From assembly GCA_944323625.1 (NCBI GenBank), contig CALUTD010000001.1, forward strand, positions 62,001-126,000: DNA of 64,000 nt, in the 5' to 3' direction. The notes beneath the pieces were generated by a model that made no database searches, was not told where the DNA came from, and worked only from the letters and a program-made list of their open reading frames with translations. Positions 4,587 through 52,605 of the stretch are shown piece by piece. The DNA is from Candidatus Gastranaerophilales bacterium. GTDB lineage: Bacteria > Cyanobacteriota > Vampirovibrionia > Gastranaerophilales > Gastranaerophilaceae. The translations under genes and the position numbers were made by a program. The stretch's first letter is position 1; every line of letters starts with the position of its first letter.

Positions 4587-7001
4587 TTATTTATCTGAAG
4601 GAATTCTCATACCGTAGAATGAACGAACTACAAATATAAGAGCTACAACAAATAAAACCACTCCAGCAATTGGTGCTGCCGTTTTAAATGCAGGAGCAAT
4701 CGCAATTTCCATTGCCAATAATCCAAACAATGTCGTAAATTTAATTATAGGATTCATAGCTACAGAAGAAGTATCTTTAAACGGATCGCCTACAGTATCA
4801 CCAACAACTGTTGCATCGTGAAGCGGTGTTCCCTTTTCATTCAAATCAACTTCAACAATCTTTTTCGCATTATCCCAGCAACCGCCGGCATTTGCCATAA
4901 ATACGGCCTGGAATAATCCGAATATTGCTATACCGATTAAGTAGCTTACAAAGAATGATACTGGATTTACATTATTCATCATCGGTGCGGATAAACAAGC
5001 AAAAGCAAGTGCGAATGCAAATAAAGCTATAAATATATTTAACATACCTTTTTGAGCATATTCCGTACATATTTTTACAACTTCTTTGGAGTTATCAACA
5101 TTTGCTTTTTTATCATCACAATCGCCCAATTTAATGTGTTTTGAAATGTATTCAACAGCTCTATATGCACCTGTTGTTACAGCCTGCATTGAAGCACCCG
5201 AGAACCAATAAATAACAGCGCCGCCTAATAACAGACCTAAAATTGTATAAGGGTTTAACAGGTTTAAGATAGCTTCAGGCTCAATACCCAGTGTTTCTTT
5301 AATTACAAGAATCAAAGAGAATATCATTGTAGTTGCACCTACAACCGCAGTACCGATTAATACCGGTTTTGAAGTAGCTTTAAATGTATTTCCTGCTCCG
5401 TCATTTTGTTCAAGATATTTCTTTGCCTTATCAAAATTCGGTTCAAACCCAAATTCGTTTTTGATTTCTTCAGAGATGTTCGGAATTTCTTCAATTAATG
5501 ATAATTCGTATACAGACTGTGCATTATCGGTAACAGGACCATAGCTGTCAACTGCAATCGTTACGGGCCCCATTCCGAGGAAACCGAAAGCAACCAAACC
5601 AAATGCAAATACAGATGAATATATCATAATTTCAGGCGGAATATTAATACTTGCAAAATATGCAAGTGCCATTAATACGACTATTACAAGTCCAATCCAA
5701 AATCCTGAGAAATTCCCTGATACTATACCTGATAATATTGTTAAAGAAGCACCACCTTCTCTTGAGGCAGTTACAACTTCGCTTGTATGTTTTGCCTTTG
5801 GACTTGTAAATACCTTTGTAAATTCAGGTATTAATGCAGCACCTAAGGTACCGCAGCTTATGATTGTAGACAAAGTCAGCCATAAACCGCAAGGCATTGA
5901 ATTTAGTAAATAATAGCTTACTCCGAATGTCATACAGATTGATAAAATCGAAGTGAGCCAAACAAGATTTGTTAAAGGCGCTTCAAAGTCAAATTCTTCC
6001 TTCTTTGAATATAATACGCTGTTTATTATATTGTTTATACCATAAGCTACTACAGAAGTAATAATCATAAGGTATCTCATTACAAAAATCCAGGTTAATA
6101 ACTGAATTTGGTATTCGGGGAAAACGCCGAGCAATATAAAGCTTACAAGCGCAACACCCGTTACACCGTATGTTTCAAACCCATCTGCAGTAGGTCCTAT
6201 TGAATCTCCAGCGTTATCTCCGGTACAATCTGCAATTACTCCGGGGTTTCTTGGGTCGTCTTCTTTTATACCGAATTGTATTTTCATTAAATCAGAACCT
6301 ATATCGGCAATTTTTGTGAAAATACCCCCTGCAACACGAAGTGCAGAAGCTCCAAGAGATTCACCTATAGCAAATCCAATAAAGCAAGCACCTGCCAAAT
6401 GTCCCGGAATAAACAATAAAATTGAGAGCATAACTATAAGTTCAACACTTACAAGCAGTACACCAATACTCATACCTGCTTTTAAAGGAATATTTAAAAT
6501 ATCCAAAGGTTTATTTTGAAGTGATGTAAAAGATGTTCTTGCATTAGCTAAAGTATTCATCCTTATTCCAAACCACGCTACTCCGTAAGAACCTAAAATA
6601 CCTACAATTGAAGCAGCAAGAATAATTAATACGTTTACAGCGCTCATTTCCTGCAAAAATCCGAAATAAAATGCAATACAAATTGCAATTAAGATTTCTA
6701 AAATAATTAAAAACTTACCTTGCTGTATAAGATAAGTTTTACACGTTTCAAAAATAGTATTACCTATTTCTATCATACATTTGTGAGCTTTAACGGCTTT
6801 AATTTGTCCGTATGCAATAAGCCCCCAAATAAGTCCCAAAACAGAAACAACAATACCTGTAACCAACAAAGTAAAATTACATCCGTCAATTTTGGGAACA
6901 ACAAGATTTGCTTCACCCGCCAAAGCAGGAGAAACTGAGACAAGTAATAATGCTAAAATTGCATAAAACTTCCTCATAAAGCTCTGTTTTAATAATGGCA
7001 T
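4587..7001 (-). CDS. hppA: Membrane-bound ion-translocating pyrophosphatase
   Basis: Integral membrane enzyme that couples hydrolysis of cytoplasmic pyrophosphate to ion export. About 804 residues with some sixteen membrane segments. Hallmarks: EDDPRNPGVIADCTGDNAGD followed by SIGPTADGFETY (substrate and Mg sites), GESLGASALRVAGG, and the C-terminal acidic loop VGDTVGDPFKDTS. The site that separates potassium-dependent from independent enzymes reads GNTFKA; a lysine there marks the potassium-independent class in characterised members. Whether it pumps H+ or Na+ I cannot settle by eye. A frame extends to a GTG at 7025, but the ATG used here is placed 7 nt after GGGAG. The N-terminus has an extra signal-like hydrophobic stretch ending ALAGEA. 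Single-gene transcript. Confidence 0.95.
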   Translation of the reverse strand: MPLLKQSFMRKFYAILALLLVSVSPALAGEANLVVPKIDGCNFTLLVTGIVVSVLGLIWGLIAYGQIKAVKAHKCMIEIGNTIFETCKTYLIQQGKFLIILEILIAICIAFYFGFLQEMSAVNVLIILAASIVGILGSYGVAWFGIRMNTLANARTSFTSLQNKPLDILNIPLKAGMSIGVLLVSVELIVMLSILLFIPGHLAGACFIGFAIGESLGASALRVAGGIFTKIADIGSDLMKIQFGIKEDDPRNPGVIADCTGDNAGDSIGPTADGFETYGVTGVALVSFILLGVFPEYQIQLLTWIFVMRYLMIITSVVAYGINNIINSVLYSKKEEFDFEAPLTNLVWLTSILSICMTFGVSYYLLNSMPCGLWLTLSTIISCGTLGAALIPEFTKVFTSPKAKHTSEVVTASREGGASLTILSGIVSGNFSGFWIGLVIVVLMALAYFASINIPPEIMIYSSVFAFGLVAFGFLGMGPVTIAVDSYGPVTDNAQSVYELSLIEEIPNISEEIKNEFGFEPNFDKAKKYLEQNDGAGNTFKATSKPVLIGTAVVGATTMIFSLILVIKETLGIEPEAILNLLNPYTILGLLLGGAVIYWFSGASMQAVTTGAYRAVEYISKHIKLGDCDDKKANVDNSKEVVKICTEYAQKGMLNIFIALFAFALAFACLSAPMMNNVNPVSFFVSYLIGIAIFGLFQAVFMANAGGCWDNAKKIVEVDLNEKGTPLHDATVVGDTVGDPFKDTSSVAMNPIIKFTTLFGLLAMEIAIAPAFKTAAPIAGVVLFVVALIFVVRSFYGMRIPSDK

Positions 7002-7090
7002 TTTTATTCTCCCTTCCAATACCACTTTACAAAGCTTTATTATATCTTATTATTCATAATTTAACTATTTTTTAAAATTAGTTAATATAT

Positions 7091-7336
7091 CTATTTTACT
7101 TTTAAGAATTCGCCGATATCTGTTTCAAGATAATTTGCCAGTTCTACAAGTTTACCCAATGATAAATTTAATACTCCCATTTCTATTTTGGCAACATAAC
7201 TCCATGAAACCTTCATGAGTTCCGAAAAGGTTTCTTGTGTATACCCGCGTTCTTTTCTGACTCTTTGGATATTTTTTCCAACTAATTTTAAAGTGTTCTT
7301 TTTGTCCATATATTTATTATGTACGTTTATTAACAT
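7091..7336 (-). CDS. XRE-family helix-turn-helix regulator
   Basis: 81 residues, essentially one Cro/C1-type HTH domain: LVGKNIQRVRKERGYTQETF, then SWSYVAKIEMG (recognition region) and LGKLVELANYLE. It is a small DNA-binding repressor-type protein with no partner domain. It is transcribed away from the G-tract/prepilin locus starting at 7.41 kb, so local control of that locus is possible but unproven. The start is uncertain: a second ATG (MDKKNTLK) at 7309 fits the family better, and neither has a clear Shine-Dalgarno sequence. Confidence 0.8.
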   Translation of the reverse strand: MLINVHNKYMDKKNTLKLVGKNIQRVRKERGYTQETFSELMKVSWSYVAKIEMGVLNLSLGKLVELANYLETDIGEFLKVK

Positions 7337-7407
7337 ATGTGTATAGAAAGATAGTTGTATAGAAATATTTATGAATGCAATTCGTATCTGAAATTTTATT
7401 ATAATTC

Positions 7408-7436
7408 TTGCATTGTGTTTAAATATTTGTTATATT
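7408..7436 (+). promoter_or_regulatory. Predicted promoter of the 7.46-kb G-tract leader
   Basis: TTGCAT, 17-nt spacer, TATATT, 27 nt upstream of the leader ATG. The same arrangement precedes the two sister leaders at 19.3 kb and 51.65 kb. Confidence 0.55.
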
Positions 7437-7462
7437 CAAATATATCAGGAGGTAAAAGAAAT

Positions 7463-7501
7463 ATGAAGAAAGAAATACACTACGGGGGGGGGGTAAATTA
7501 A
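7463..7501 (+). CDS. Short leader ORF carrying a G10 tract
   Basis: AGGAGG lies 8 nt before an ATG that reads MKKEIHYGGGVN and stops. The glycines are encoded by a run of ten G. Adding one G would shift the frame to read about ten further codons (KLRVKNK...), up to the TAA at about 7533. The same design (SD, ATG, short basic peptide, G run, then TAAATTAA) occurs upstream of the prepilin genes at 19.2 and 51.65 kb. A strong SD and own promoter argue that it is translated. Whether the peptide or the act of translation matters is unknown. Confidence 0.5.
   Translation: MKKEIHYGGGVN
7484..7493 (+). repeat. Homopolymeric G10 tract
   Basis: Ten consecutive G in very AT-rich DNA, inside the leader ORF and flanked by TAC and TAAATTAA. 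The flanks are shared with the tracts at 19.27 and 51.67 kb (CAC in the last). Confidence 0.95.
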
Positions 7502-7546
7502 GAGTTAAAAATAAATTAATATATTACTTCTAAATTTGTTTAAATA

Positions 7547-7574
7547 TTGATTAATATGGGTATATAACTATAAT
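7547..7574 (+). promoter_or_regulatory. Predicted promoter of the 7.6-kb prepilin gene
   Basis: TTGATT, 16-nt spacer, TATAAT. The spacer AATATGGGTATATAA is nearly identical to that of the 51.8-kb prepilin promoter, which supports function. It lies after the G-tract leader, so the prepilin can be transcribed without the leader. Confidence 0.65.
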
Positions 7575-7596
7575 TAAATGGAAAGGTTAATAAGAA

Positions 7597-8244
7597 ATGA
7601 AAGAAATAAAAGGGTTTACCCTTGCAGAGGTTTTAATTACTCTTGTTATTATAGGAATTATTGCAGCTATTACTGTTCCTGTTGTTATGGCGAATCATAG
7701 AAAAACAGAAACTTCATCAAAACTCAAAAAATTCTATGCGACAATGTCTAATGCAATAAAACTTGCAGAAAATGAAGAGGGAATTCCTTCTTATGATTGG
7801 GATTTTTCACTTGACGGAAAAGAATTTTTTGAAAAATATCTAAAAAAACATGTAGTTACAGGTGAAGTTGAAGATACCGACAGCCAAAGATATAGAAATG
7901 GTAACTGGCTATATTTTGACGTTAAATTTAATGATGGAGCTATTATGGGGTTTGATTGGTGGGGAAGTGATAACGGACGGATTATGATGTTTATAGTCGA
8001 TGTAAACGGAGATAAGGGACCTAATGAGTCAGGGAGAGATGTTTTTGATTTCGCAATTACAAATAATAAACAGTTTGGCGGAATATTATTCCCTTTTGGT
8101 TGTTCAAGTCAAGATCCCGTTGAAAATAAAAAATGTTCAAGACAAGAAATGCTTGATTATTGCAAAGAAGTAAAACATAGCTGCAGCGAACTTATAATGA
8201 ATGACGGCTGGGAAATTAAAGACGATTATCCTTATAAAATATAA
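7597..8244 (+). CDS. Prepilin-like protein (type IV pilin / pseudopilin N-terminus)
   Basis: 215 residues. The short basic leader MKEIKG is followed by FTLAEVLITLVIIGIIAAIT, the classic class III signal: cut after Gly by prepilin peptidase, with a Glu at mature position 5 and a long hydrophobic helix. Two features recur in the four short prepilins of this window: an aspartate-rich loop here reading VDVNGDKGPN, which resembles the calcium site of GspG-type pseudopilins, and a C-terminus DGWEIKDDYP. The helix-adjacent NHRKTETSSKLKKFYATMSN is also shared. It probably sits in the inner membrane or in a pilus-like filament. No pilus assembly ATPase is in this window, so the machinery is elsewhere. 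Confidence 0.88.
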   Translation: MKEIKGFTLAEVLITLVIIGIIAAITVPVVMANHRKTETSSKLKKFYATMSNAIKLAENEEGIPSYDWDFSLDGKEFFEKYLKKHVVTGEVEDTDSQRYRNGNWLYFDVKFNDGAIMGFDWWGSDNGRIMMFIVDVNGDKGPNESGRDVFDFAITNNKQFGGILFPFGCSSQDPVENKKCSRQEMLDYCKEVKHSCSELIMNDGWEIKDDYPYKI

Positions 8245-8282
8245 AATTATGTAATATATAAAAAAGATGACAATTAAAACAT

Positions 8283-10160
8283 CTATATTTTTGTAGCTAA
8301 CGATGGAGCGAGGGCAATAAATTGTCTTACCAGTTCTTTATCCCATTGTATTCCGGCACCGTCTTCCAATATTGCACATGCTTTTTCAAAGCTCATACCT
8401 TTTCTGTACGGTCTGTCGCTTATAAGTGCATGATATGTATCGGCTATAGCAACAATTCTTGCCGCCAATGGTATTTCTTCGCCTTTTAAACCGCATGGAT
8501 AACCGTTTCCGTTCCATTGTTCATGGTGATATTTTACTATCGGAATTAAATCATGCAATAAAGGATTTGGGTCCAAAATCTTTTGTACACCTATTGTCGG
8601 GTGCTGTTGTATAATTTTAAATTCATTATCCGTTAATTTTGAAGGTTTTGTTAATACATCTTCAGGTATACCAATTTTCCCTATATCATGAAGGAGTGCC
8701 CCTAATTTTATGCGTTCAACTTCTTTTTCAGGCAAATTTATTGCTCTTGCAAGGGCGACTGAATATCTTGATACTGATGAAGAATGGTCTTTTGTATATT
8801 CATCTTTTGCATCTATAGCACTTGCAAGTGATGTTACAACTTCTATTAAATGGTTTTGTGAGAGTATATTTTCATTTTGGAATTGCTCTACAAGCGCTTC
8901 TTCAAAATTAATACCTATTTGAGAATGTCTTTTTGCCATTACTGCAGCAAAGGAGTTTAATGCTGTATCATCCCAAAAATCAAAATCCTGAGTTGAAACA
9001 ATTATCGAACGTCCATTTGCATATCCTTTTGTTTTTGACACCAGTACAGCTTGTTCTGCAAGTATAAGCAATTTTTCTTTATCAGTGGAATCATCAGGAT
9101 ATGTGGAAATTCCGACTGAAACTTTATTTAGAGGTCCTATATCATCAATCAAACAACAGGAAAGTGAATATGTCAGATATTCAGCCATATATTTTGCTTC
9201 TTCGGCATTCATATCCCTTAAAATTACTGCAATTTTGTCACCGCCATATCTTGCGGCAATATCTTGTTTTTTTATATTCTCGTTTATTTTCCCCGCTACT
9301 GTTTTTATTACTTCATCGCCTTTTGAATGTCCAAAATCTCTGTTTATTTGCCCCATATTATTTATATCAAATATTAGAACAGAAACTTTTGTTTTACTGG
9401 CATGCGCATATTCAAGCTCTCCGGTTAAAAGTTCATGAAATCTTCTGTGAGAATATAAATTTGTCAGATTATCAAGAAATGAATTTTGAGCAACTTTTTC
9501 ACTTAAAATTTTGTTTTGATATAATAGGCCTATATTCGCGGCGGATAGTTGATATAAGTTTATATGGTTTTGTACATTCGTATCACTAACAAGTATTACA
9601 CATATTGTTTTCCCCTGGGCAGTTACTGGAATTATTGCACAAGGTAAATTCATCAATGATGGTACTTTTAAAAAATCAGAATCATTAAGGATTGAAATTT
9701 CATTATTATCCAAAGCTTTTATTATTTCATTGTCTTTGTCATTTTTAAAAACTTTAAAAGAATATACACTTGAATTTTTGTCCAACAGTTTTATGTTTAT
9801 AGTTCCAGCCTGGTTATCTATAAATCCAAATGCAGTATATGTACAGTTTAACATATTAACAAATAAGCTGTGTAGTGCATTTAAAGAATCTTTAATATCT
9901 GTGTAGTTTTTAACAATTTCATTTACTTGTTTAATAAAAGCAAGATAATCAATCACACCAAATAATTTTTCACTGTGATGAGGAAGACCAATACCTCCAT
10001 ACGGAGTCTTTACAGAATTCATTCCACTTCCCAGTACGTTTATTTTAGCAATTAATCCGCTTTTATCTATCGGATTTGTTGTAATTGGTGATGAGGAAGA
10101 GAAACTGTTGTCTTTTTTATTATTTATATTTATATCTGTACTTTTCTTACTTTTTTGCAT
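8283..10160 (-). CDS. GAF-like / degenerate GGDEF / HD-GYP signalling protein
   Basis: 625 residues, cytoplasmic, no membrane segments. The order is a polar N-terminus, a GAF-like sensor region (about 80-215), a GGDEF domain (about 225-385) and an HD-GYP domain (about 430-620). The GGDEF signature reads ARYGGDKIAV, with Lys in place of the catalytic Glu, so cyclase activity is doubtful and the domain may only bind GTP. The HD-GYP domain is intact: LHDIGKIGIPEDVL, KYHHEQWNGNGYP and ARIVAIADTYHALISDRPYR. A cyclic-di-GMP phosphodiesterase tuned by GTP and a small ligand is the likeliest role. Monocistronic, convergent with the prepilin gene. Confidence 0.87.
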   Translation of the reverse strand: MQKSKKSTDININNKKDNSFSSSSPITTNPIDKSGLIAKINVLGSGMNSVKTPYGGIGLPHHSEKLFGVIDYLAFIKQVNEIVKNYTDIKDSLNALHSLFVNMLNCTYTAFGFIDNQAGTINIKLLDKNSSVYSFKVFKNDKDNEIIKALDNNEISILNDSDFLKVPSLMNLPCAIIPVTAQGKTICVILVSDTNVQNHINLYQLSAANIGLLYQNKILSEKVAQNSFLDNLTNLYSHRRFHELLTGELEYAHASKTKVSVLIFDINNMGQINRDFGHSKGDEVIKTVAGKINENIKKQDIAARYGGDKIAVILRDMNAEEAKYMAEYLTYSLSCCLIDDIGPLNKVSVGISTYPDDSTDKEKLLILAEQAVLVSKTKGYANGRSIIVSTQDFDFWDDTALNSFAAVMAKRHSQIGINFEEALVEQFQNENILSQNHLIEVVTSLASAIDAKDEYTKDHSSSVSRYSVALARAINLPEKEVERIKLGALLHDIGKIGIPEDVLTKPSKLTDNEFKIIQQHPTIGVQKILDPNPLLHDLIPIVKYHHEQWNGNGYPCGLKGEEIPLAARIVAIADTYHALISDRPYRKGMSFEKACAILEDGAGIQWDKELVRQFIALAPSLATKI

Positions 10161-18484: not shown

Positions 18485-19120
18485 TTATAATTTATACGGA
18501 TAATCATCTTTAATTTCCCAACCGTCTTTCATAATAAGTTGCGCACCCCAATAAGCCGCGCTGCTATTATACTGCTTTGCAGAAGATAAAATCTCATCTC
18601 TTGAGCCTTCCTGTTCACAAACTTTATTAGGACAGTTACTGGCAATATCAAATTCAAATATATCTCTTCCACCCTGATTAGGACCTTTTTCACCGTTTAT
18701 ATCTATGTAAATAATATCAGAATTGGGATTAGAAAAACTCATAATAGTTCCATCATTCAGATAAACAAAAAATGTAGGCCAATCAATAAATCCATTAGGA
18801 GTATCACCGCTATCATCAAAATAGTATTCTTCTGTAATTTTGCTATAATTCATATATTTTGCTATATATGTTCGAAACCAGTATTGATAGCAATTTTCAA
18901 TATTTTCATAACGACAATCAGGCATATTTATAGTTCCATTTTCAATTTCGGCGAGTCTTATTGCATTTGTAATCGCTGAATAAAACTTTTTAAGTTTTGC
19001 CGATGTCTCAGTTCTTTTATGGTTTGCAATTACCAAAGGTACTGTTATTGCAGCAATGATTCCTATAACAACAAGGGTTATAAGTACTTCCGCTAAAGTA
19101 AATGATTTTATCTTTTTCAT
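18485..19120 (-). CDS. Prepilin-like protein
   Basis: 211 residues of the same family as the gene at 7.6 kb. The leader is MKKIKS followed by FTLAEVLITLVVIGIIAAIT; the residue before the cut is Ser, not Gly, which is unusual for prepilin peptidase. The aspartate loop reads IDINGEKGPN and the C-terminus DGWEIKDDYPYKL. Four cysteines lie in the variable domain (PDCRYENIENC, NCPNKVC), probably forming disulfides outside the cell. Upstream on the same strand lie a terminator hairpin and a G11-tract leader ORF. Confidence 0.87.
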   Translation of the reverse strand: MKKIKSFTLAEVLITLVVIGIIAAITVPLVIANHKRTETSAKLKKFYSAITNAIRLAEIENGTINMPDCRYENIENCYQYWFRTYIAKYMNYSKITEEYYFDDSGDTPNGFIDWPTFFVYLNDGTIMSFSNPNSDIIYIDINGEKGPNQGGRDIFEFDIASNCPNKVCEQEGSRDEILSSAKQYNSSAAYWGAQLIMKDGWEIKDDYPYKL

Positions 19121-19181
19121 ATTATAAACTCTCCTATATTAATAATTATATGCCAATATTATTGAATAATTAAGCAAAATA

Positions 19182-19211
19182 AAGTCAACATTTCGTATCA
19201 AATGTTGACTT
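19182..19211 (-). terminator. Hairpin between G-tract leader and prepilin gene
   Basis: Perfect 12-bp stem AAGTCAACATTT / AAATGTTGACTT with a 6-nt loop, followed in the transcribed direction by TATTTTG. It sits between the leader ORF and the prepilin. A counterpart at 51.73 kb keeps the fold with a compensatory base change (C:G to T:A), which supports a real RNA structure. Confidence 0.75.
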
Positions 19212-19221
19212 AAATCTATAT

Positions 19222-19296
19222 TTAAAAATACAATATTAAACTGCTTTTAGCTCTTAATTTACCCCCCCCCCCGTAGCGCTTAAATTGTTTATACAT
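19222..19296 (-). CDS. Short leader ORF carrying a G11 tract
   Basis: AAGGAGG lies 8 nt before an ATG. The 24-residue peptide starts MYKQFKRYGGGGKLRAK and ends seven residues later. At eleven G the frame stays open through the tract and stops about 10 nt before the terminator stem; at nine or ten G it would stop within three codons after the tract. Thus tract length decides how close ribosomes come to the hairpin. Same design as the leaders at 7.46 and 51.65 kb. Confidence 0.5.
   Translation of the reverse strand: MYKQFKRYGGGGKLRAKSSLILYF
19262..19272 (-). repeat. Homopolymeric G11 tract (C on the + strand)
   Basis: Eleven consecutive C on the + strand, so G in the leader mRNA. It is flanked by CGCTAC before and TAAATTAA after, the same flanks as the other leaders. 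Confidence 0.95.
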
Positions 19297-23115: not shown

Positions 23116-23204
23116 ATTTTAATTTTTGATAAAAAAATTGAAATTTGGGTATTAAAATAATAATAAGCGTTAAAATAGAACAAATAGGAAACGGAAGTAA
23201 TTAT

Positions 23205-26018
23205 ATGAAGAAAACTGAAAGAGCATTTTCGCTTGCCGAATTGTTGATATCTTTGCTGGTAACCAGCATGATTTTGGCGGCAACAGTTCCAACTATAACA
23301 AGAAAAGCAGCATCAATAAATGAAAATCCGTGGAAATATGCACAGGGTAGCGGTAATGACATTTATGCCGCAACCGGTGATAATCAATCAATACTTGTTG
23401 GTACCTCTGGGGGTGGGATTTCAGATAATGAATCTGTTGGGAAACTAAACATAGTAACGGCTACAGATTCTACAGATAATGCTCTTTCCTTCTTTAACAA
23501 AGACGGAGATTATTTGTCCGGTGTTTTTGCTAATAATAAATCAAATTTAGTTCTTGGTGTAAATGTAGTAAAAAATGATATTAATGATGATAAAGCAAAA
23601 AATAATTTAATTATTAATTTGGAAGATTCGGGCGAGTCAAGTAAAGTTATAGAAAATAATGTAATTTTAGGCATTGATGTTCTTTCTGAACTGGAAGATG
23701 ATCCTTCTGTTAGAAGTAATGTTGCAATTGGCAATTCTGCACTTGTAATGCCAAAAAAAGAAAATATAGCCAATTTAAATTTTTGGAATACAATAATTGG
23801 AGATCATGCCGGAGGTAATTTAAATGGTGGTTTGTATAATGTTGCAATAGGACGGTATTCTTTATACAGTTATGATACAGATAAGACACATCCAGGCATC
23901 CAAACATACAATAAAACTAATGAAGCTAATAGATCAGCACATAACATAGCAATAGGATATAGTGCTGGTAGTAAGATTTCAGGCGGCGGTCATTATAACA
24001 TAGCAATGGGGCCAATGGCATTGGCTTACACTACCAATGGAAATAATAACATCGCTCTTGGTAATTATTCAATGTATAATAACCAATCAAATGATTACAA
24101 TATAGGTATTGGTATTTCGTCATTATACAATTTTAGAGGAACAGGCAATACCGCAGTTGGCAGTTATGCAATGCGGGGTCAAAGTGAAACTAACAATGGT
24201 ACAACAACCTATGCAACAGGAGCTTATAACACGGCACTCGGTTATATGGCGTTATATTCAACAACGTCAGGAGGATATAATGTAGGCTTAGGTGCAAGCG
24301 CAATGTATTATAATACGACAGGACAATATAACACTGCTGTAGGACGTTCTGCACTGTATGGTGATTCTACTAATAAATATTCGGGAAATTATAATACGGC
24401 AATTGGTTACAGAACTTTATATTCAGCTACTACTGGCGGTTATAATATCGCAATAGGCCCTAATTCTATGTATTATAATACAACAGGCCAATATAATACT
24501 GCAATAGGCCCTGAGTCTATGAGGGGCGATTCAACAAATAAGCATACAGGGGAGTACAATACTGTTCTTGGATATAGAACATTGTACTCAAATGTAGATG
24601 GTGATAGAAATACAGCAATCGGAGCAAGAGCACAATATAATTATACAGGTGGAACTGATAATACATCGGTGGGTTATTATTCTATGTATGGTTCAAAAAC
24701 AAATAGTGAACTGACAAGTACAAATAATACTGCTGTAGGTTCATATTCATTAAGTGCAATAAAATCAGGATCAGATAATACAAGTATAGGGTATGAATCC
24801 TTAAGACTAAATACAACAGGAAGTAATAATACAGCTATAGGTATAAAAACTTTAAGAAGTAATACTACAACTAGCGGGAATACCGCTATAGGTTCAGAAA
24901 CACTAAGAGCAGCAACAGGAAGTAATAATACAGCTATTGGTGTTAATGCTTTAAGAGGTGAAGAAAGCGCAAACGGTACTTATACCGGTACAACAGGAGA
25001 TTATAATATAGCAATAGGTCCTAATGCAATGTTAAACTCAAAAAGCGGGAACTACAATATTGCAATAGGATATAATTCTTTAAGTTCGCTTTATTATCCA
25101 TCATCAAGTCTTATGGCTTCCGATAATATAGCACTTGGAAGAAATTCATTAAAATCGAATGTAAAAGGACGTAGTAATATTGGAATAGGACATAGCACAT
25201 TAGAAAATACAATAGGAGAAAATAATGTTGCTATTGGTTCTGCTGCAGGAAAGGGAATTTCAGATTCAGATTATAATGTAGCATTGGGGTATGTTGCTTT
25301 ATATCAGGCAGATGCAGAAGAAAATACGGCAATAGGTTCAAGATCACTTTATAAAAACAAAACAGGAGGATATAATACTGCTATTGGTTCACAAGCTTTA
25401 TATAATTTAACAGAAGGAAATAATAATATTGCTATAGGTCAAGGCGCTGGTAAGGGTATCCAAACAGCATCTCATACAATATGCATAGTAAATGTAAATC
25501 AAGTTGATAATTGTGAAAATGAAAATTATAGTTTTCAAATTGGTATAAAAAGTGATGGCTTTAGGTATTTATATGGTAGTATGGGGAACAGTCCAAATTT
25601 ACATTTAGATGGTGATTTTTATGCAAATAATATAGCATATAGTTCCGATCTGCGTTTAAAAAACATAACAGGCGACAATCATGCCGGATTAGAGGAAATC
25701 AACAAATTGAAGGTAAAGAACTTTACATACAAAGATGACGAGAAGAAAAAACCTCATGTTGGTGTAATTGCTCAAGAATTACAGAAAATATTCCCAAATT
25801 CGGTGTTTAAAGATGATAAAGGGTATTTATCAATATCACAAAATGAAATCTTTTGGGCAATGGTAAATTCTATAAAAGAATTGTGCGCTAAAATACTCGG
25901 ATTAGATAAGAGAATAACAGCTCTTGAAGAAGAAAATGCAAGACTAAAACAGCAGATAGAAAAGCAGAATTTAGAATTTGAAAAACGATTGAGCAAGCTT
26001 GAAAAGAATGCAGATTAA
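23205..26018 (+). CDS. Prepilin-leader / YadA-head repeat / S74 chaperone fusion protein
   Basis: About 937 residues from the ATG at MKKTERA, placed after GGAAACGGAAG; an upstream alternative start has no such site. Residues 1-30: basic leader then FSLAELLISLLVTSMILAAT, a type IV prepilin signal with Ala before the cut. Residues 30-150: non-repetitive. Residues about 165-790: some 25 or more repeats built on N(T/I)AIG.xALy.nTTGgyN, the left-handed beta-roll of YadA-like adhesin heads. About 815-890: SSDLRLKNI, then HVGVIAQELQKIFP, the Peptidase S74 intramolecular chaperone known from phage tail spikes, with the self-cleavage site before SDLRLK. The end is a coiled coil (LEEENARLKQQIEKQ). Together this suggests a secreted trimeric fibre attached through a pilin-like anchor. 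Confidence 0.88.
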   Translation: MKKTERAFSLAELLISLLVTSMILAATVPTITRKAASINENPWKYAQGSGNDIYAATGDNQSILVGTSGGGISDNESVGKLNIVTATDSTDNALSFFNKDGDYLSGVFANNKSNLVLGVNVVKNDINDDKAKNNLIINLEDSGESSKVIENNVILGIDVLSELEDDPSVRSNVAIGNSALVMPKKENIANLNFWNTIIGDHAGGNLNGGLYNVAIGRYSLYSYDTDKTHPGIQTYNKTNEANRSAHNIAIGYSAGSKISGGGHYNIAMGPMALAYTTNGNNNIALGNYSMYNNQSNDYNIGIGISSLYNFRGTGNTAVGSYAMRGQSETNNGTTTYATGAYNTALGYMALYSTTSGGYNVGLGASAMYYNTTGQYNTAVGRSALYGDSTNKYSGNYNTAIGYRTLYSATTGGYNIAIGPNSMYYNTTGQYNTAIGPESMRGDSTNKHTGEYNTVLGYRTLYSNVDGDRNTAIGARAQYNYTGGTDNTSVGYYSMYGSKTNSELTSTNNTAVGSYSLSAIKSGSDNTSIGYESLRLNTTGSNNTAIGIKTLRSNTTTSGNTAIGSETLRAATGSNNTAIGVNALRGEESANGTYTGTTGDYNIAIGPNAMLNSKSGNYNIAIGYNSLSSLYYPSSSLMASDNIALGRNSLKSNVKGRSNIGIGHSTLENTIGENNVAIGSAAGKGISDSDYNVALGYVALYQADAEENTAIGSRSLYKNKTGGYNTAIGSQALYNLTEGNNNIAIGQGAGKGIQTASHTICIVNVNQVDNCENENYSFQIGIKSDGFRYLYGSMGNSPNLHLDGDFYANNIAYSSDLRLKNITGDNHAGLEEINKLKVKNFTYKDDEKKKPHVGVIAQELQKIFPNSVFKDDKGYLSISQNEIFWAMVNSIKELCAKILGLDKRITALEEENARLKQQIEKQNLEFEKRLSKLEKNAD

Positions 26019-26159: not shown

Positions 26160-26240
26160 TACACATGTGTTTTGCAAGGTATTTACAATTTCATGTTGTT
26201 TTACCAAGCCGGTAAGAACCTGAAACAAGTTCAGGTTGAC
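26160..26240 (+). repeat. Dispersed repeat, copy 1 (inverted copy at 60.05-60.13 kb)
   Basis: About 80 nt beginning TACACATGTG and ending in the palindrome AACCTGAA-acaag-TTCAGGTT. The inverse complement of 60047-60133 shows the same order of blocks (ACACATGT, CAAGGT, ATGTTGT, GGTNAGAACCTGAAAC) with scattered mismatches. Confidence 0.65.
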
Positions 26241-26244
26241 GAGA

Positions 26245-26251
26245 GGGGGGG
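26245..26251 (+). repeat. G7 tract
   Basis: Seven G directly after the dispersed repeat, in the context GACGAGAG...AGTGC. It is not in an ORF and its flanks differ from the prepilin-linked tracts. Confidence 0.9.
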
Positions 26252-39038: not shown

Positions 39039-39047
39039 GGGGGGGGG
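39039..39047 (+). repeat. Homopolymeric G9 tract
   Basis: Nine G beginning with the G of an ATG directly after a terminator, about 160 nt upstream of the acidic EF-hand protein. The following bases AAAAAATAATATATTAAG resemble, weakly, those after the prepilin-linked tracts. A 29-codon frame starts at that ATG but has no Shine-Dalgarno sequence. Confidence 0.9.
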
Positions 39048-42043: not shown

Positions 42044-42070
42044 ATGATACAAAATTACCCCCCCCCGTAG
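42044..42070 (+). CDS. Frame-blocked start of the prepilin gene (SD-ATG plus C9 tract)
   Basis: GAGGA lies 5 nt before this ATG. With the nine C present it reads MIQNYPPP and stops at TAG. With eight C it would read MIQNYPPRSEKTFLKEK and continue into the prepilin frame; with eleven C the same plus one proline. With ten C it stops at a TGA just before the prepilin. So only tract lengths of 8, 11 and so on open the gene. I list it as the 5' part of the downstream gene. Confidence 0.6.
   Translation: MIQNYPPP
42058..42066 (+). repeat. Homopolymeric C9 tract inside the prepilin 5' region
   Basis: Nine C between TTA and GTAGCG. The reverse complement reads CGCTAC-G9-TAATTTT, which matches the flanks of the 19.27-kb tract (CGCTAC-G11-TAAATT). 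The motif therefore lies in inverted orientation relative to its gene here. Confidence 0.95.
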
Positions 42071-42083
42071 CGAAAAAACGTTT

Positions 42084-42683
42084 TTGAAAGAAAAAACATT
42101 CACACTGGCAGAAGTTTTAATTACTCTTGTTATTATTGGTATTATTGCAGCTATAACCGTACCCGTTATTATGGAAAACCACAGAAAAATTGAAACAGCA
42201 GCAAGAGTTAAAAAATTTTACTCAAACATTTCCAATATGATTAATTTAATAAAAGTTGATAACGGTGTTGAATATTTAAGATATTATGGAGATACTGACT
42301 ATTTAACGAGCGAAAATATTTTAAAATATCATTCATATACGAAGATATTACCACACACCGGTAATAGTTTAGTACTTTTACTTAATGATGGCAGTAAGTT
42401 AACAACAGGCTTTTGGTCTACTATAGAATTTACAATTGATACAAACGGAGATAAAAAACCAAATAAATGCGGGTATGATATATTTTCAGTCAGTCTTGGA
42501 GAAAATAATTCCAGTAATCAAATAAGTTTTAATTGTTTCGGAAATACAAGGGAAGAAGTAATTGAGGCACTAAAAGAAGAAGCAAATTATACGGATAGTG
42601 CCTGCGGACAATCTGATTGCTATACAAAATTGTTAATGATGGACGGATGGGAATTTAAAGATGATTACCCCTGGAACTTATAA
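42084..42683 (+). CDS. Prepilin-like protein, probably phase-variable and currently OFF
   Basis: 199 residues from a TTG, with the family's FTLAEVLITLVIIGIIAAIT helix, NHRKIETAARVKKFYSN, aspartate loop IDTNGDKKPN and C-terminus DGWEFKDDYPWNL. The residue before the cleavage site is Thr (KEKT/F), not Gly. The TTG has no Shine-Dalgarno sequence; the well-placed SD-ATG is 40 nt upstream, out of frame by one base because of the C9 tract. The coding sequence itself is intact with conserved features, which argues against a dead pseudogene. Low-level expression from the TTG cannot be excluded. Confidence 0.8.
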   Translation: MKEKTFTLAEVLITLVIIGIIAAITVPVIMENHRKIETAARVKKFYSNISNMINLIKVDNGVEYLRYYGDTDYLTSENILKYHSYTKILPHTGNSLVLLLNDGSKLTTGFWSTIEFTIDTNGDKKPNKCGYDIFSVSLGENNSSNQISFNCFGNTREEVIEALKEEANYTDSACGQSDCYTKLLMMDGWEFKDDYPWNL

Positions 42684-51885: not shown

Positions 51886-52605
51886 ATGAAGAGAATAAAA
51901 GGATTTACCCTTGCAGAAGTACTAATTACTCTTGTTGTCATAGGTATTATTGCAGCTATAACCGTTCCTGTTATTATGGCAAACCATAGAAAAACAGAAA
52001 CAGCTTCAAGACTCAAAAAATTCTATGCGACAATGTCCAATGCAATAAAACTTGCGGAAATGGAACATGGCACAAAATCTTATGAATGGGGTTGCCCCAC
52101 TTGCGGAGACTTTGAAGCAGAAAAAGAGTGGTTTGAAAAATATCTTGCCAAATATATAAACTACACTAAAATAGAGAAAATGTCAGAAAATGCAGAAAGA
52201 ATGAAATTGCATAAAGAAATGGGACTAATAACCGGAGGAGCTGCCATATATTTAAATGACGGTTCTCTTATGTTCTCATCAGAATGCATTGATAATGTTG
52301 CGTATGACGTAAACGGAGATAAAGGTCCGAATGAATTTGGAAGAGATATATTTGTATTTTTTATACTTTCAAGTGATGATAGTGGTTACGCAAATGATAT
52401 TATAGATAATATTCCTCGTTTTAATACTATAAATTTTGATCCTATTCCCTGGGAAAATAACGAACAAATGCTAAAAACAAACTATAATAGAGAGAAATCC
52501 TTGGAAGAATGCAAAACAGATTCAGGCAGAACATGGGGTTATTGTACACGTCTAATAGAACTTGACGGATGGGAAATTAAGGATGATTATCCCTGGAAGA
52601 TATAA
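51886..52605 (+). CDS. Prepilin-like protein
   Basis: 239 residues, closest to the gene at 7.6 kb. Leader MKRIKG followed by FTLAEVLITLVVIGIIAAIT with Gly before the cut, NHRKTETASRLKKFYATMSN, aspartate loop YDVNGDKGPN and C-terminus DGWEIKDDYPWKI. A CPTC pair (GCPTCGDF) and two later cysteines suggest disulfides. GAAAGG precedes the ATG. Product is an inner-membrane or filament pilin-like subunit. Confidence 0.88.
   Translation: MKRIKGFTLAEVLITLVVIGIIAAITVPVIMANHRKTETASRLKKFYATMSNAIKLAEMEHGTKSYEWGCPTCGDFEAEKEWFEKYLAKYINYTKIEKMSENAERMKLHKEMGLITGGAAIYLNDGSLMFSSECIDNVAYDVNGDKGPNEFGRDIFVFFILSSDDSGYANDIIDNIPRFNTINFDPIPWENNEQMLKTNYNREKSLEECKTDSGRTWGYCTRLIELDGWEIKDDYPWKI

Follow-up and report, generated by a model that had tools for sequence, protein, structure and literature searches.

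Described phase-variable systems and the G-tract leader

The pil1 and pil3 loci of S. gallolyticus are proven phase-variable attenuators that comprise GCAGA repeats, a translated leader peptide and a stem-loop terminator (Danne et al. 2014, PMC3894217). In the low state (pil1), the leader peptide stops 39–49 nt before the terminator; in the high state, it stops at most 4 nt before this structure, inside it, or beyond it (PMC3894217). For the Neisseria pilC gene, PMC7593972 cites Jonsson 1991 on poly-G phase variation. Lengths of 9 (53%) and 10 (26%) prevail among the poly-G tracts of Campylobacter, which are mostly located in ORFs, and 18–39 phase-variable genes are present in C. jejuni (PhasomeIt, PMC6321876).

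Here, we analysed a leader unit at positions 7408–7597 of a 64-kb stretch of DNA (the window) from the genome of a Candidatus Gastranaerophilales bacterium (the host genome, G000; 1.99 Mb, 96% complete, 37 contigs). The lineage of this bacterium is sister to the photosynthetic cyanobacteria. We suggest that the unit is probably one copy of a multi-copy G-tract prepilin leader that operates as a contingency (phase-variation) locus and, where the leader stands alone, as an attenuator. It very likely belongs to a phase-variable leader family; that the stand-alone copies work by attenuation is about as likely as not.

Like pil1 and pil3, the stand-alone loci possess a slippery repeat within a translated-looking leader ORF upstream of a pilin gene, followed by a terminator-like hairpin (20 of 21 copies), and the shift of the stop codon is akin to that of the streptococcal system, from 25–51 nt before the hairpin to at most 10 nt before it, inside it or beyond it. 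Unlike S. gallolyticus, the repeat is a homopolymer of G instead of a 5-nt unit, the proteins are type IV-like prepilins and not constituents of sortase pili, 21 copies occur in a single genome, a second promoter-like site follows the hairpin, and the system is known from sequence alone; furthermore, the reported copy lacks the hairpin. No earlier description of G-tract prepilin leaders was found in the pilin and pili literature searched, nor did the searched literature contain a paper on phase variation in the Gastranaerophilales, which are uncultured gut relatives of cyanobacteria. Few bacteria would have as many candidate phase-variable genes from a single family as the prepilins described below. 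They suggest a second origin, in an unrelated type of pilus, of the frame-dependent attenuation known from streptococcal pili, and an importance of surface-antigen variation to these commensals.

The reported leader unit and the other tracts in the window

A sequence-only reading of this DNA had described a promoter, an AGGAGG sequence, an ATG, a short ORF with ten Gs, a second promoter and a prepilin gene, and each of these elements was found in its place on the plus strand. The leader promoter-like site TTGCAT-17-TATATT (7408–7436; TTGCAT at 7408–7413, TATATT at 7431–7436) holds a conserved position in 21 aligned copies; taken alone, its score is not above those of shuffles (8/12), and its −10 region is conserved across the copies. 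The likewise conserved Shine-Dalgarno sequence AGGAGG (7447–7452) precedes the leader ORF, which in its assembled, short 'off' reading starts with the ATG at 7463 and has 12 codons (MKKEIHYGGGVN; 7463–7501), including the G10 tract (7484–7493). With 8 or 11 Gs, the ORF enters the ON frame and is extended (7494–7533; ...GGGGKLRVKNKLIYYF) up to a stop at 7533, a long reading of 22–23 residues. A second promoter-like site, TTGATT-16-TATAAT (7547–7574), is conserved in the copies and lies 5' of the gene (7597–8244) for a prepilin-type protein of 215 amino acids (MKEIKG/FTLAEV...), which was recognized by domain search (N_methyl and DUF6613) and structure modelling. The model of this protein (pLDDT 87.8) has a helix from residue 9 to 61 followed by strands that form a beta-sheet head; a Foldseek search of the PDB with this model gave no match.

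No terminator-like hairpin is present between the reported tract and the prepilin gene (fold z-score 0.82), and the spacer between leader and prepilin measures 121 nt versus approximately 160 nt in the sibling units. Since this copy has no hairpin, its prepilin should be read at any tract length, as in the streptococcal system when the terminator is deleted; the reported copy may thus be viewed as a natural 'delta-terminator', whose prepilin is probably uncoupled from the leader and expressed whatever the length of the tract.

The improbability of a ten-G run, emphasized in the sequence-only reading, is borne out by the number of G or C runs of at least nine nucleotides on both strands of the window: 0.006 are expected from its base composition and five were found. 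Three of them belong to stand-alone leader units (7484 on the plus strand, 51671 on the plus strand, 19262 on the minus strand), a C9 run at 42058 lies within the leader of a prepilin, and the run at 39039 follows a hairpin in non-coding DNA. The earlier statement that the unit recurs twice more is therefore true of the stand-alone units of the window (51671 and 19262) but too low, given the fourth tract at 42058 and the 121 tracts of the genome.

The second stand-alone leader ORF (51647–51682, plus strand; MKKSINRHGGG) contains a G9 tract (51671–51679), which leaves it in the short, off frame; it is followed by a terminator-like hairpin (51730–51764) detected by folding and covariation, a promoter-like site (51778–51805) and a prepilin gene (51886–52605; 239 amino acids) found by domain search. 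On the minus strand, the third leader ORF (19222–19296) has a G11 tract (19262–19272) and is in the long (ON) frame (MYKQFKRYGGGGKLRAKSSLILYF); its hairpin (19180–19213; dG −13.5 kcal/mol, z −6.0) and a prepilin gene identified by domain search (18485–19120; 211 amino acids) come next. The fourth prepilin (42044–42683, plus strand) carries the C9 tract (42058–42066) in its own leader and is off as assembled; it would be open with C8 (212 amino acids) or C11 (213 amino acids). The prepilin downstream of the leader carries the N_methyl domain, and DUF6613 scored above the cut-off at two of the four window loci.

Elsewhere in the window, a 957-codon ORF (23145–26018, plus strand) that was inspected by eye starts like a prepilin, contains numerous YadA-like repeats (NTAIGxxxL) and ends in a region reminiscent of an S74 intramolecular chaperone. 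The dispersed sequence GTAAGAACCTGAAACAAGTTCAGGTTGAC precedes a G run both at window positions 26200–26251 (G7) and at locus L075 (G9).

Genome-wide distribution of G-tracts and prepilins

The host genome harbours 121 G-tracts of at least eight nucleotides, about 1.2 being expected, so that a chance run is ruled out at this level as it is in the window (five found, 0.006 expected). As 102 of the 121 tracts are directly preceded by C, and the reversed-pattern control (tract, then C) yielded none, most of them share one sequence context. Reading of the DNA stretches around 120 of the 121 tracts identified 79 G-tract leaders, with 57 fused to a prepilin and 22 standing alone; in 57 of the 79, the ATG is located exactly 24 nt before the tract. 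Four prepilins of the host genome carry the tract as C.

An independent TIGR02532 search detected 106 prepilin domains in the host genome, and a tract lies at most 260 bp upstream at 83 of these 106 genes (59 near, 24 far), counts that do not represent independent trials because the copies have a common descent and recombine with each other. The 18 tract-less prepilins with full upstream sequence all lack the promoter module of the stand-alone class; their leaders are short and ordinary, and the DNA upstream of them is different; the nineteenth tract-less prepilin is a copy of the module cut by a contig edge. A local oddity confined to three copies is ruled out; the candidate phase-variable pilins form a set that extends over the genome. 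The proposal of a unit with a frame set by the tract is supported in that the unit looks translated, and its tie to prepilins in that 21 of 21 complete stand-alone copies precede a prepilin gene. Unlike the situation in Campylobacter, one gene family with a conserved leader dominates here (83 of approximately 120 tracts).

Four G10–G11 tracts occur within about 4 kb of another contig (locus L067; contig C4, approximately 4849–8736); two of these lie in a DegT-like aminotransferase ORF and an acetyltransferase-like ORF, functions that were read from the sequence, and the region is a candidate phase-variable surface-sugar locus.

The fused class of tract-containing prepilins

At the 57 fused loci, a Shine-Dalgarno sequence and an ATG are followed by usually seven further codons (MNKS[IL]NR[YH]), the G-tract, and the prepilin N-terminus S/FTLAEVLITLVVIGIIAAITVP. 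Approximately 17 residues separate the tract from this N-terminus in one frame only (MNKSxNR[YH]-GGG...SFTLAEV), and the proteins are mostly 220–270 amino acids long. Matches to PF07963 and TIGR02532 revealed the class III signal (FTLxE) and the N-terminal methylation helix; all 57 fused prepilins have Glu at position +5, and cleavage would mostly follow a Ser (49/57) rather than a Gly. The existence of this class supports the earlier suggestion of a relationship between the leader and that of a prepilin, as the same leader is fused to a pilin at 57 loci, but the likeness on which the suggestion had been built (a basic peptide ending in Gly) is beside the point: the Gly-Gly-Gly of the leader is encoded by the tract, and cleavage of the fused copies is expected about 17 residues later, before FTLAEV.

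Most fused loci (43/57) are open at 8 or 11 Gs, and in most the OFF frames run into a stop (TAA or TAG) soon after the tract. The assembled lengths are mostly 9 (32 loci) and 10 (22 loci), and the assembled sequence is in frame in only 6 of the 57 (P = 7e-5 versus one third). ORFs of at least 200 codons are nevertheless retained at 54 of the 57 loci, even though 51 genes are out of frame, which argues for expression in some cells and disfavours the view that these prepilins are pseudogenes. Slippage by one G would bring the pilin gene into frame or take it out. The lengths of 8 and 11 Gs should give an identical mature pilin, because the prepilin peptidase is predicted to cut after the tract-encoded part. 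Tract length differs in 7 of 29 pairs of similar genes, a comparison of paralogues of one genome only.

In Neisseria pilC, the tract is positioned in the signal-peptide region. The fused class resembles this arrangement, as a poly-G tract at such a site switches a pilus protein on or off; pilC encodes a single assembly/adhesin protein, whereas here about 60 prepilins themselves are affected and share a leader peptide.

The preponderance of lengths that leave the gene off by one also fits a programmed slippage, in which G9 or C9 is maintained and slippage of RNA polymerase or the ribosome gives a small, constant dose of pilin. In the host genome, 28 of the 57 fused genes have G9 and need G8, in the congener G025 (see below) 14 of 15 have C9 and need C8, and at most G-tract loci a stop codon directly follows the tract, a setting that favours +1 shifts. 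A stop codon at the shift site is known to favour +1 frameshifting in prfB. We consider programmed slippage improbable: 13 fused genes with G10 need the opposite shift, and tracts outside leaders have the same 9/10 length distribution, so that lengths of 9 and 10 may be a mere mutational equilibrium. A default 'off' setting can thus follow from the frame design combined with such an equilibrium, the same peak at 9 and 10 being present outside the leaders and in Campylobacter.

The stand-alone class as a candidate attenuator

The 22 stand-alone leaders have no fused pilin; 21 are complete, and each of these precedes a prepilin gene with its own start, in 19 cases at a distance of 152–167 bp. 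Alignment of the 21 copies revealed a common order of a promoter-like site (...AATATATGATAAT), a Shine-Dalgarno sequence, an ATG, the tract, TAAATTAA and a hairpin, followed by the second promoter-like site (TATATAATTAT), a further Shine-Dalgarno sequence and the prepilin gene. The hairpin has a T-rich tail, is situated at about +42 to +91, and is missing solely from the reported copy; fold z-scores of the four examples tested were between −3.7 and −6.6. Changes on both sides of the stem occur at six pairs, a degree of covariation reached in 0 of 500 shuffles, and controls slid along the alignment scored lower.

In the short readings, the leader ORF ends 3–29 nt past the tract and 25–51 nt before the hairpin, and none of the 42 OFF readings reaches the hairpin; in 20 of the 20 hairpin-containing copies, the long reading comes to within 10 nt of the hairpin or terminates inside or beyond it. 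The leader family, its frames and the covarying hairpin are properties of the DNA, and from these we infer slippage in cells, termination, antitermination and their effect on pilin expression. The tract would most likely act as a phase-variable attenuator. Ribosomes on leaders with 9 or 10 Gs would stop 25–51 nt short of the hairpin and the terminator would form; those on leaders with 8 or 11 Gs would advance as far as the hairpin or enter it, thereby opening it, and transcription would reach the prepilin gene. The main weakness of the attenuator reading is the second promoter-like site, conserved after the hairpin and before the prepilin gene in all stand-alone copies, since it would bypass the attenuator.

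This second site, together with the separate start codon of the prepilin in all copies, is also what speaks for regarding the stand-alone leaders as relics of fused prepilins into which a terminator, a promoter and a new start were inserted, the pilin being locked on and the leader having no present role. The occurrence of the same leader in fused form elsewhere, the presence of both forms of one leader type in G025, and the reported copy, which does without even the hairpin, fit such an origin. Each complete stand-alone unit nevertheless retains a tract of 8–11 Gs, a start codon and a Shine-Dalgarno sequence (a retention that weighs less as evidence, as the copies share descent and recombine), no module-bearing prepilin with a decayed tract was present among the tract-less ones examined, and the pairs of the hairpin covary. 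We therefore regard the relic interpretation as rather unlikely.

With its promoter-like site, Shine-Dalgarno sequence, ORF and terminator-like hairpin, the stand-alone unit also has the make-up of a complete small gene, which might direct the phase-variable synthesis of a free peptide (about 22–50 amino acids in the ON frame) from its own promoter to its own terminator, independently of the prepilin. We find this highly unlikely: the ON-frame C-termini vary in both length and sequence among the copies, as if only the position of the ribosome counts, and the leader invariably accompanies a prepilin.

Signs of exchange between prepilin genes

Three pairs of loci (L121/L122, L062/L089 and L079/L099) share 97–99% identity in the 150 bp that follow the tract. 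The near-identical block begins 7–8 nt before the tract, runs for 165 to more than 500 bp downstream and ends inside the prepilin gene; the leaders upstream are clearly diverged and the flanks are unrelated. These blocks are a sign that prepilin 5' regions are exchanged between loci and that the tract, or a site close to it, marks the boundary. Pilin antigenic variation at Neisseria pilE is similar in that a G-rich element, the G4 element, lies upstream of a pilin gene, just as near-identical blocks start at the tract here; the pilE element is a four-run quadruplex motif, whereas the host tract is a single run of 8–11 Gs.

The shared block C(G/A)C(C/T)AC-G9 might accordingly serve mainly as a site of exchange, for which the three pairs with diverged leaders are the evidence. 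Breakpoints are, however, expected in any short conserved block, the pairs are few, and the frame design of the leaders would be left unexplained; a recombination anchor as the principal role is, in our view, very improbable.

Relatives, mismatch repair and origin of the tracts

Among 41 genomes of the genus, the exact leader word is abundant only in the host genome (47 occurrences) and in G025 (26 occurrences), a congener (Candidatus Gastranaerophilales bacterium Lapin-001 bin51) that presumably stems from a rabbit. Conservation, which had been proposed as a check, is thus divided: outside this species the exact leader hardly occurs, but the congener has the same design with other sequences. 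The leaders of 15 G025 prepilins are of the type MENKHQIYPPRGGKT and contain C9; as assembled, 14 are off by one, and the fifteenth was scored from a different ATG. It also has two stand-alone leaders with an unrelated hairpin in the same geometry, and the stop shift between ON and OFF frames is found in both.

Prepilin numbers range from 3 to 17 in 38 genomes, compared with 106 in the host, 59 in G025 and 54 in G008. Only 1 of 20 G008 prepilin loci examined (L241–L260) has a G or C tract, so that prepilin expansion and tracts are separable, and expansion is ruled out as the cause of the tracts. Several G008 prepilins have long leaders bearing other repeated motifs (NRQLNxxxTRK).

A leader pattern derived from these loci was without a match in viral contigs, which were searched with regard to a mobile or viral origin. 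The mismatch repair protein MutS1 is intact in the host genome, and MutL, found at some level in 38 of the 41 genomes of the genus, is absent from the host assembly. At the host mutL locus (L239; contig C2:91210–95418, a long contig), the host retains the adjacent pilT and permease genes; in the position occupied by mutL in the congener G029, the host has a 123-codon ORF and a dxs-like ORF, and no remnant of mutL was detected in the 8 kb around the locus. Loss of mutL would raise slippage rates, and it may be a contributor at most, as the tract-rich G025 keeps MutL. Mismatch-repair loss as the sole cause of the tracts is ruled out as a general rule, with MutS1 intact in the host and MutL present in G025.

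Taken further, the phase-variable leader family might form a default-off pilin repertoire, with one shared leader, translational switching of about 60 prepilins and attenuators for about 20 more, mutL lost, the tract as the boundary of exchange, and only a few of the approximately 80 pilins displayed by each cell at a time; we put this forward tentatively, as a possible but doubtful extension.

Tracts are located in other genes in many other members of the genus. At four loci of congeners (L140, L161, L165 and L192), G9–G11 tracts lie close to the 5' ends of long ORFs that do not encode pilins; these are further candidate phase-variable genes. Genomes of the genus g7 (e.g., G156, G228 and G238) contain dozens of tracts of eight or more Gs, with nearly equal counts of CG8 and G8C; these tracts are perhaps flanked by C on both sides and would then represent a different tract family.
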